A stretch of 64,000 nucleotides of DNA, taken from positions 1 to 64,000 of the forward strand of contig JAPOVQ010000009.1 of NCBI GenBank assembly GCA_026708035.1. The letters are read 5' to 3'. This stretch comes from Chloroflexota bacterium. Lineage in GTDB: Bacteria > Chloroflexota > UBA11872. The notes beneath the pieces are model-generated. The model did no database searches, was not told the origin of the DNA, and was given only the letters and a program-made list of their open reading frames with translations. The number at the start of each line of letters is the position of its first letter. Position 1 is the stretch's first letter. Shown here piece by piece: positions 13,391-64,000 of this stretch. The translations under genes and the position numbers were made by a program.

Positions 13391-13753
13391 AGGAGCCGAA
13401 TCGGAGTCCGCCTGTAGTCGCCGCCGGTCGGAGGGTATCGCGAACCCGCCCATCCGTTCGCGGTGAGGCCGCCTGCCCGTTCGTGGTGAGCCAGTCGAAC
13501 CGCGCCCTTCGACAGGCTCAGGGCGAACGGGCGGGAATGCAATCGTGCCGAGCCCTTCGGCAGGCTCAGGACAGGCTCTGTCGAACCACGACGCAAAGAC
13601 GAAACCTGGATTCCGGCTTTCGCCGGAATGACGGAGGGGCAACGTCCGAGCTGGACCAGCGCAAATTGGCCAACGACGGCTCCGCGGGCGTTTGCCTCTC
13701 CCAGCCGCGCGCGGCACGATCGAGCACCCGCCTCCCCTGCACGTGGGCCTTCC
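13391..13753. repeat. Repeat-filled gap with TTCGACAGGCTCAGG-type elements
   Basis: Contains at least two copies of a TTCGACAGGCTCAGGGCGAACGG-type element (about 13507-13531, and a nested variant at 13551-13587 with CTTCGGCAGGCTCAGGACAGG), plus an ATTCCGGCTTTCGCCGGAAT hairpin at 13611-13630. These are known kinds of dispersed intergenic repeats that often produce spurious reading frames. The last ~100 bases ahead of the prenyl synthase gene hold nothing recognisable. Confidence 0.6.
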
Positions 13754-60135: not shown

Positions 60136-60381
60136 ATGTGCCGACTAATCCCCGGCTTTGCAGACGGTCCCGCGCGGGCCGACCAGACTAGCCAACGCCA
60201 ATGCGCGCGGCAACGGTTTGGAGACCCGCTCGGGAGCCGCCGCTGCAAGTCCTCCATCCGCTTGATCCGGCCGCCGGCTGAACCCTGACGGAGACCCGCC
60301 CGCCGCGGTCGCCGTCCCGAGATGGTCCGCCGAGTCGGCGGCGGGCTATTCTCGCGCTCCCCCGGCATCGCCAACGCGAGA

Positions 60382-61233
60382 ATGATCGACTTCAATCGAT
60401 CCTTCGTCACCTGGACCGTTGAGTGGACCGAGCCCGATCCGGTCTATGCCTTTCCGGGCGGCTTCGTCGGGGAGCCGGGCGAGGCGACCACCAGCCGGAT
60501 CCAGATCGACGCCGGTTGCGAGATCGTCGATGAGGCGCGGGGGACGGCGTGCACGACTTATCTAAGCGCGCCCTGCCGCTCCGAGTTCATCATCGCCGAC
60601 GACAACCTGTTCCAGGTGCCCAACGGCGAGTTCCGCGCCGCGGTCAGCGACGCGTTCACGGTCCCCATTGCCACCGAGCCCAGCTGGCACGAGGAAGGCA
60701 CGCGGCGGCAGCCCGTCGGCGCGCGCTTCGCGGAGTTCGCCATCGACGTGCGCACTCAGGAAGCGGTCGCTCTGACGTCGGACGACGCCGTCGTGGCGCA
60801 CTCGCTGGCGGGCGCGCGCCTCAACGCCCGGTCCACCTACCGCGACGACACGCGCGGCCTGACGGTAACCGTCGAATACCCGATCAAGCTCATCAACCTG
60901 CACGCCGGCGGCGGACGCTATCAGGTGTGCACCGGCGCGGTGGCGCTGCCCGACCTGACGACCTGGGACGGCGTTGGCGTCGACCGGGTCTTCGTGGCCC
61001 ACGCGGCCTTCACCGCCGACGACCACGTGGAGTTCATCCTGCGGCGCAGCATCGATGTGGCTGAGCGGGAGCTGGCCTGGGCGGCGCTCGTGCGCGGGCG
61101 CGACCGCTACCAGCGGCGCGTCCCGGGAGAGCCGGTCGATCGGCCGCCACCCCGAGCCGCCGGCTACTTTGAAACCTGGGAGTTGGCGGCGGTGAACACC
61201 ATCTGGCGGACCTCCGGCGAGGCGCGCCCGTGA
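60382..61233 (+). CDS. Unrecognised 283-residue protein, first of a tandem pair
   Basis: 283 residues, no membrane helix, mostly beta. Motifs shared with the next gene: MIDF, EPDPVYAFPGGFVGEPGEA, the IIADDNLFQVP segment, EFRAAVS, ARLNARSTY, VEYPIKLINLH, GAVALPDLTTWDGVGVDRVFVAHAAF and EFILRR. I know no family with this set. The start at 60382 is chosen because the paralogue begins at the same motif. The GTG of the next gene overlaps its stop codon, so both are made together. Confidence 0.72.
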   Translation: MIDFNRSFVTWTVEWTEPDPVYAFPGGFVGEPGEATTSRIQIDAGCEIVDEARGTACTTYLSAPCRSEFIIADDNLFQVPNGEFRAAVSDAFTVPIATEPSWHEEGTRRQPVGARFAEFAIDVRTQEAVALTSDDAVVAHSLAGARLNARSTYRDDTRGLTVTVEYPIKLINLHAGGGRYQVCTGAVALPDLTTWDGVGVDRVFVAHAAFTADDHVEFILRRSIDVAERELAWAALVRGRDRYQRRVPGEPVDRPPPRAAGYFETWELAAVNTIWRTSGEARP

Positions 61234-62081
61234 TCGACTTCGCGGGTTCGCACTTCACCTGGGACCACCGGCCGCACGAGCCGGACCCCGACTACAAATA
61301 TCCGGGCGGCTTCGTGGGCGAGCCGGGCGACGCCTATCACGTGCGCATCGGCTACGACGCCGTGTGCACGATCACCGGGGACCAGGGCGCGCCCCCGCTG
61401 GAAATCTTCCTGCTCCAGCCCTGCCTCGCCGAATACACCATCGCCGACCGCAACTTGTTCCAGGTTCCCAGCCAGGAGTTCCGCGTGGCGCTGAGCCGCA
61501 CGCACGGCATCCCGATTGCCGGGCGCCCGTCAACCGAGCGCGAGCCCACCGACGCCACGCCGCACGCCGGCCGCTACGCCGGCACGGATTTCACGACCCA
61601 CGAGGTTCCGGGCGCGCAGGTCACGCGTGACACCGACGAGGTGATGCGCGCGGTCTTGGCCGGCCGGCGCCTGAACGCCCGCACCACACACTATGAACAC
61701 GCCCTCGGGCTCACGATCACGCTGGAATACCCCATTCGCACGATCAACATCGAGCGCGCGAAGGGCGCCTTTCAGGTCGACACCGGGCCGATGGCGCTGC
61801 CCGATCTCGCGACGTGGGACGGGGCCGCCGTGTCGCGGGTGTTCCTGGCCCACGCGGCGTTCAGCGCCTGGGACCGCGCCGAGTTCATCCTGCGGCGCGA
61901 GGTCGAGCCGTTGGCATCCGAGCACTGGTGGTGGGAGGTGCGAGGCCGCGACCGCCGCGCCCTGCGCGACCCGTCCAAAGCGCCCACCGAGCCGCCGCTG
62001 CCGCGCCGACCGCCGACGCTCTACAACGAGACGCTGGTCGTGACCGTCCGCAACGAGATCCTCATCGCGCCGGACAGTTAG
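61230..62081 (+). CDS. Unrecognised 283-residue protein, second of a tandem pair
   Basis: Also exactly 283 residues. It shares MIDF, EPDPDYKYPGGFVGEPGDAY, LLQPCLAEYTIADRNLFQVPSQEFRVALS, RRLNARTTHY, LEYPIRTIN, GPMALPDLATWDGAAVSRVFLAHAAFSAWD and EFILRREV with the first gene. By eye about 45% identical. GTG start overlaps the upstream TGA. Function unknown; the equal lengths and coupling suggest a heterodimer. Confidence 0.72.
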   Translation: MIDFAGSHFTWDHRPHEPDPDYKYPGGFVGEPGDAYHVRIGYDAVCTITGDQGAPPLEIFLLQPCLAEYTIADRNLFQVPSQEFRVALSRTHGIPIAGRPSTEREPTDATPHAGRYAGTDFTTHEVPGAQVTRDTDEVMRAVLAGRRLNARTTHYEHALGLTITLEYPIRTINIERAKGAFQVDTGPMALPDLATWDGAAVSRVFLAHAAFSAWDRAEFILRREVEPLASEHWWWEVRGRDRRALRDPSKAPTEPPLPRRPPTLYNETLVVTVRNEILIAPDS

Positions 62082-62102: not shown

Positions 62103-62906
62103 TCAGGCGTGGCGGATCCGCACCCGACCCAGGTGCGACGAGCCCTGGATAAGCAGGTTCACGAAACCCGCGTCCGGCTCCGGCTCGTCGCCTCCGCTGA
62201 CGCCGCGACTGCGGCTGCCGACCGGCCGCATGCGTCCAACCCATGACTCGGGCCTGGGCCCGCCGTGCTCCCCGGCCAGGCGCGCCTCGAGCACCAGGCG
62301 CGAAAGCGTGGTGTTCACGTTTTGGCCGATACGCCACCAGACCGGAACGACTAGGTCCAGCCGGCCCGCGATGCACGTCACGTCGAGGATCGCCGGCGGA
62401 CGCGTGATGTCGACGTAGCGCAGATCGACAGTCACGTCGCACAGCCGGCAGGTGATCTCTCCTCGCCGGACATCGCCCCGCGCGCGCAGCGTGCCCCCGG
62501 TGTAGGTGAGGTCGATGTGGCTGTCCTTCCACCCCCGCAGGCGCACCGTGCGGCGCGTGCGGATGGTCCCGTTTTGCCACAAGGCGCCGAAGGCAACGAT
62601 CGCGAAGGCCAACCAGAGGCCAAACTGTACGCCGCCGGTGAAATTGCCGAGATGACTCACCTGCACCAGGACTCCGCCGCCAGCCACAAGCCATGGGACC
62701 GGACTGCGCAAGCCGAGATCATTCATCCAGGAGAGACCAAAGAGGACCAACATCATCGTCAGCAGGTCCCAGACATCGAGGACTCCGACCATGCGCAGGA
62801 TGATCCAAAGGAACACCACCATGCCGAAGGCCGCTCGCATGAAACGCGGCGAGTCCAGCAGTTGGCGCCAGAACGGCCTGGCCATCATGTAGCGCCGGTC
62901 AGCCAT
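62103..62906 (-). CDS. LiaF-like four-helix membrane protein, copy 1
   Basis: About 267 residues. Four N-terminal helices (FMRAAFGMVVFLWIILRMVGVL ... FGLWLAFAIVAFGALW) are followed by a beta-helical domain (TIRTRRTVRLRGWKDSHIDLTYTGGTLRA, AGRLDLVVPVWWRIGQNVN) as in LiaF/DUF2154 cell-wall-stress proteins. Such proteins often restrain a sensor kinase; no kinase is in view. ATG at 62906 with GAGGG ahead. A close paralogue lies at 63226. Confidence 0.75.
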   Translation of the reverse strand: MADRRYMMARPFWRQLLDSPRFMRAAFGMVVFLWIILRMVGVLDVWDLLTMMLVLFGLSWMNDLGLRSPVPWLVAGGGVLVQVSHLGNFTGGVQFGLWLAFAIVAFGALWQNGTIRTRRTVRLRGWKDSHIDLTYTGGTLRARGDVRRGEITCRLCDVTVDLRYVDITRPPAILDVTCIAGRLDLVVPVWWRIGQNVNTTLSRLVLEARLAGEHGGPRPESWVGRMRPVGSRSRGVSGGDEPEPDAGFVNLLIQGSSHLGRVRIRHA

Positions 62907-62909
62907 CAC

Positions 62910-63225: not shown

Positions 63226-64000
63226 TCAGGCGTGGCGAATCCGCACCCGACCCAGATGTGACGATCCTTGCACCAACAGGTTCACGAAGCCGGCGTCCGG
63301 CTCCGGATCGCCGCTCTTGCGGAAGCCGCGCCTGCGGCTGCCGACTGGCCGCATGCGCGCGTACCACGTTTGCGGTCTGGGGCTGCCGTGCTCCCCGGCA
63401 ATACGCGCCTCAAGCACCATGCGCGAGAGCGTGGTGTTCACATTCTGGCCGATGCGCCACCAGATAGGGACGACCAGGTCCAGCCGGCCCGCGACGCAGG
63501 TCACATTGAGGATCGCCGGCGGACGCGTGATGTCGACGTAACGCAGATCCACCACAACGTCGCAAAGCCGGCACGTGATTTCGCCACGCCGCACATCGCC
63601 CCTGGCGCGCAGGGTGCCCCCGGTGTAGGTGAGGTCCACGTGGCTGTCCTTCCACCCCCGCAGGCGCACCGTCCGACGCGTGCGGATGGTTCCGCTTTGC
63701 CACAGGGCGCCCACGGTAATGATGGCGAAGGCCAGCCAAATGCCCAACTGCACGCTGCCGCTGAACTCGCCAAGATGGCCCGCCTGCACCAGGATTCCGG
63801 CGCCGACCGCAAGCCACCCGGACGGGTGGCGCGAGCCGAGTTCCATCATCCAGCCGATACCGGCGATAACCAAGACGATTGTCAGCAGGTCCCATGCGTC
63901 GAGAATCCCCAACAAGTAGAGAATGATCCACAGGGAGAACGCCGCCCCGATTAGACCCCGCACGAAGCGCGGCGAGTCCAGCAGCTGGCGCCACTGCGGC
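63226..64000 (-). CDS. LiaF-like four-helix membrane protein, copy 2 (5' partial at window edge)
   Basis: The gene runs off the right edge. The frame continues past the GTG at 63963 into QWRQLLDSPRFVRG, which matches WRQLLDSPRFMRA of copy 1, so the true start lies beyond 64000. About 70% identical to copy 1 over the C-terminal beta-domain (WKDSHVDLTYTGGTLRARGDVRRGEITCRLCDV). The two are tandem duplicates and may form a complex. Confidence 0.75.
   Translation of the reverse strand, partial: PQWRQLLDSPRFVRGLIGAAFSLWIILYLLGILDAWDLLTIVLVIAGIGWMMELGSRHPSGWLAVGAGILVQAGHLGEFSGSVQLGIWLAFAIITVGALWQSGTIRTRRTVRLRGWKDSHVDLTYTGGTLRARGDVRRGEITCRLCDVVVDLRYVDITRPPAILNVTCVAGRLDLVVPIWWRIGQNVNTTLSRMVLEARIAGEHGSPRPQTWYARMRPVGSRRRGFRKSGDPEPDAGFVNLLVQGSSHLGRVRIRHA

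Follow-up and report, generated by a model that had tools for sequence, protein, structure and literature searches.

Two adjacent genes in the window (the whole 64,000-nucleotide stretch of Chloroflexota DNA that was analyzed, part of contig 9 in an assembly totaling 3.46 Mb) are paralogues, and they belong to a previously unnamed protein family that is patchily distributed over several Chloroflexota classes. We tentatively favor the reading that they are anciently duplicated members of this undescribed family of cytoplasmic catabolic proteins, serving in this genus as isoforms or as subunits of a mixed oligomer. We infer a cytoplasmic location, a catabolic role, an enzymatic nature, co-expression and functional divergence. 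The protein is most likely an enzyme, and with lower probability a binder of small molecules; it would act inside the cell, after uptake, on an intermediate in the breakdown of carbohydrates or amino-acid derivatives. Both copies would be co-expressed and reciprocally diverged in the window's genus, and the outcome would be either a pair of isoforms that differ in specificity or a mixed oligomer with two kinds of subunit. The host is probably a sponge symbiont, because its named close relatives are Chloroflexota MAGs with the bin prefixes COS and RHO, which suggest the sponges Coscinoderma and Rhopaloeides; this is in line with a sponge MAG study (PMC8163846).

The gene pair in the window's genus

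Gene 1 (P1; 60382..61233, + strand) runs from an ATG start to a TGA stop, and gene 2 (P2; 61230..62081, + strand) runs from a GTG start to a TGA stop. Each encodes 283 amino acids, and the gene 1 stop and gene 2 start share four nucleotides, GTGA, at 61230..61233 on the + strand. A preliminary description of this DNA had reported two adjacent genes of equal length with this overlap, and both frames were present as described, as were all of the motifs that it quoted from the two proteins (EPDPxYxxPGGFVGEPG, ADxNLFQVP, EFRxAxS, ALPDLxTWDGxxVxRVFxAHAAF and EFILRR). By BLASTP the products are identical at 119 of 251 positions (47%, 209 bits, E = 2e-71), far beyond chance. Homologues beginning at the same place back the start codons at MIDF in P1 and VIDF in P2. 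The pair is flanked by a divergent sodium:solute symporter gene (PF00474; 58633..60135, − strand), and a consensus scan of the 246-nt region between that gene and gene 1 (60136..60381, no strand assigned) returned no sigma-70-type promoter match. The window neighbors, namely the symporter, RecJ, RelA/SpoT and membrane proteins, form no obvious pathway. Among them are tandem copies of a membrane protein of ~267 residues (62103-62909 and 63226-63999, − strand); the protein has helices at its N terminus and a conserved domain at its C terminus, is present in one to three copies in the other genomes of the genus, and its first copy in the window has no Pfam match.

P1 orthologues occur in all six genomes of the genus, with 82-88% identity in the five others, and in each of the six P1 and P2 lie side by side with the symporter adjoining the pair. 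The four-nucleotide overlap is kept in five of them, and the GTGA junction would allow translational coupling from gene 1 to gene 2. The sixth genome (G005) has a 193-nt gap between the two genes. Inside this gap, on contig 4, lies a palindromic repeat unit, TTCGACAAGCTCAGGGCGAACG, which is also found in the window at 13508-13529 with one mismatch. Across the six genomes gene 1 has dN/dS values of 0.26-0.43 and gene 2 has values of 0.13-0.27; selection on both is purifying, and they are therefore maintained coding genes.

A conserved core is kept in both copies, consisting (in gene-1 numbering) of R39, C65, E68, P80, E83, E165, P167, N172, Q181, D191 and E217. Two residues shared by all other long forms of the family are changed in P2 and its orthologues, R66 (to L) and C183 (to D), and P1 orthologues carry A in place of P186, a residue that no other member lacks. 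Losses on both sides suggest that the roles of P1 and P2 have diverged. Taken together, the purifying selection, the retained invariant residues and the different losses make the two proteins look like anciently duplicated, diverged isoforms. A hint of an internal repeat was also seen between residues 41-82 and 147-186 (hhalign probability 9%, P 0.0035).

Distribution and duplication history

Family members were found in 21 of 61 related genomes. In each of the 13 sister-genus genomes the family genes occupy separate loci, with at most two copies of the long form and one of the short form; in G006, which is a single contig and 94% complete, one long-form gene and one distant short-form paralogue lie 820 kb apart. 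Long-form genes are likewise single in the families f5 and f167, and in another family of the same class and in other Chloroflexota classes the homologues are single and unlinked; G361, G252, G695 and G701 are examples from other classes with one copy. A phylum-wide sample of 400 genomes gave 24 with a match, in 6 of 224 genera, and searches centered on three other classes added G503, G542, G492, G662, G678, G695, G701, G705, G717 and G793, together with one marginal match in G642. In G662 the family gene (L111:8690-9459) is split over two reading frames: it is a pseudogene with a frameshift, or else the assembly is wrong there. No relatives were found in plasmids, phage records, IMG/VR viral contigs or PHROGs, and within the collections scanned the family is restricted to Chloroflexota.

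The preliminary description had proposed that the pair forms an obligate heterodimer and had asked whether the two genes are conserved together. Adjacency holds in six of six genomes of the window's own genus and breaks down in the sister genus and the other classes, where the genes are single or unlinked. Because of these single, unlinked homologues the heterodimer fails as a rule for the family, and genes occurring singly elsewhere, the very observation that the preliminary description had named as counting against its proposal, are what we found. Within the window's genus, P1 and P2 may form a heteromer.

A tree built from 59 members places the long forms in one supported clade: it includes P1 and P2, groups A and B of the sister genus, and a group made up of f5, f167 and f181 members. 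By this tree, the duplication behind the pair is older than the genus. A simple tandem duplication inside the genus was considered and set aside, as P1 and P2 both sit on long branches; their grouping as sisters is neither established nor rejected (AU p 0.114). Another genome, G678, carries a recent in-place tandem triplication of a long-form gene whose copies group together in the tree, and so tandem placement also arises by duplication alone. The triplication lies at contig 181:32154-34119 and contig 201:4-705, and the ends of these two contigs appear to interrupt it.

Fold and genomic neighborhood

The preliminary description had assigned neither protein to a family, and a profile search of both against Pfam, NCBIfam and PHROGs agreed, giving no match at E<=1. 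Nothing above threshold was returned for 40 family members against Pfam-A or for the two window proteins against NCBIfam and PHROGs, and the gene 1 protein had no match among PDB sequences; the family is uncatalogued in these four resources. Two PDB profile matches were dismissed as no better than chance, one to leucyl-tRNA synthetase (E 0.9) and one to 4rho (E 0.02 across 66 residues, in part via its tag). AlphaFold gave a model of the gene 1 protein with pLDDT 85.6 and pTM 0.85, and one of the G701 homologue (L109:8718-9524) with pLDDT 95.6 and pTM 0.91 that is almost all beta, and the models predict a compact all-beta domain of ~250-284 residues. With Foldseek, the sole fold search used and one that permuted or distant folds can escape, neither model had a full-length match in the PDB or any match at E<=0.001 (best E 5.4e-3, TM 0.13), and a library of viral folds gave no match to the gene 1 model. 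Judged by these models, the fold is possibly new to the PDB. The VirK-family protein lpg1832 (PDB 5xta) is likewise a small beta protein and reaches TM 0.51 on its own 120 residues; however, the query TM is 0.27, the rmsd is 5.7, the cover is partial and there is no sequence relation. VirK family membership was rejected on this partial overlap and on the lack of a Pfam match. No signal peptide was seen by eye, and the protein is apparently cytoplasmic.

Neighboring genes were named by eye from the sequence where no family search had been run, and the neighbor tests were chosen after inspection of the data. The sets of neighbors vary by lineage, with no one fixed pathway. In G701 the family gene is preceded by an ABC substrate-binding protein and two permeases, a sugar-type ABC transporter, and is followed by an FAD oxidoreductase, an aldo-keto reductase, an alanine-racemase/BhcC-type aldolase and an ADP-ribosylglycohydrolase. 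The genes behind it in G252 encode an AstE/AspA deacylase (nearest DoeB), a transaminase, MlrC, an aldo-keto reductase and a BhcC-like aldolase. AstE/AspA genes are rare, with one copy in G252 and two each in G705 and G717, and they lie next to the family gene in G252 and two genes away in G705 and G717. The association was seen in two taxonomic families and, since the G252 member is a short form and the G705 and G717 members are long forms, it spans the protein family.

A second recurrent neighbor comes from an expanded family of 480-500-residue proteins that has no Pfam match and that profile comparison links to GH130 mannoside phosphorylases (E 8e-7); members weakly related to these phosphorylases lie at L104:1725-3227, L102:6614-8116, L111:7228-8679 and L029:9632-11059. 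The GH130-like gene is adjacent to the family gene and co-directional with it in f167 and f178 (G705/G717 and G662), and in the sister genus and f5 it is no more than two genes away, which makes four lineages. Most genomes searched hold 7-23 copies (the window's genome has seven matches, several relatives have 12-23), with one in G701 and none in G252. The commonest neighbors are Gfo/Idh/MocA dehydrogenases, which are weakly enriched at 8 of 22 loci compared to 4.3 expected (p ~0.04). Their adjacency was rejected as a key clue, as it mostly reflects a base rate of 12-120 copies per genome. The window's 3.46-Mb assembly holds 47 Gfo/Idh/MocA genes, and relatives hold up to 120, an expansion resembling the catabolic paralogue expansions described in two reports on SAR202 (PMC6946804, PMC10444878).

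Competing readings and known systems

On the strength of the catabolic contexts of the members and the confident all-beta model, we propose a cytoplasmic protein of catabolism that is probably an enzyme. No catalytic motif was recognized in the family, and no fold match pointed to a chemistry. The all-beta model, the different enzyme sets beside the gene in different lineages and the weak partial likeness to the small VirK-family beta protein are also consistent with a non-enzymatic protein of the cytoplasm, rich in beta structure, whose role is to bind a pathway metabolite or to stabilize a partner enzyme, such as the adjacent glycosidase-like or deacylase protein. We consider this reading doubtful, as no partner enzyme is constant and the polar residues R39, C65, E68, N172, Q181 and E217 are invariant across very diverged members, a pattern more typical of an active site.

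An obligate heterodimer confined to the window's genus, with one active partner and one whose active site is partly lost, is unlikely in our judgment. It would fit the adjacency of the genes in all six genomes, the overlap in five of them, the loss of R66 in all P2 orthologues while every other long form keeps it, and the absence of P186 from P1 orthologues. However, long-form genes are single in the sister genus, f5 and f167, family genes are single in other classes, the G005 pair tolerates a separation of 193 nt, and the tandem duplicates of G678 arose without any such need. A structural protein of the envelope or of phage origin, without any metabolic role, is very improbable, despite the beta-rich model and the flanking tandem membrane proteins that lack a Pfam match in the window, given the absence of a signal peptide by eye, of relatives in phage records, IMG/VR contigs, plasmids and PHROGs and of any viral fold match, and given the metabolic neighbors in other lineages.

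Compared to these alternatives, anciently duplicated catabolic isoforms or mixed-oligomer subunits remain our preferred reading. A bolder version would have a fold absent from the PDB carry out an uncharacterized step in the catabolism of carbohydrates or N-acyl compounds in Chloroflexota, with the duplication in this genus yielding a two-isoform or two-subunit enzyme whose active site is asymmetric (one copy lacking R66, the other P186); we would be surprised if all of this held. The P1/P2 pair itself is mostly a story of duplication. The wider interest lies in an uncatalogued family that occurs in several Chloroflexota classes and that has a structural model of high confidence and no relative of solved structure, and in concrete candidate partners for tests of function: the AstE/AspA-type deacylase, the GH130-like family and the ABC sugar importer.

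Tandem paralogue pairs that form heteromers offer the closest comparison. The window pair differs from them in that homologues of its family occur singly. The likeness lies in two homologous genes of which one is changed at conserved positions, and an example of a paralogue heteromer is trypanosome AdoMetDC with its prozyme (PMC5201418).
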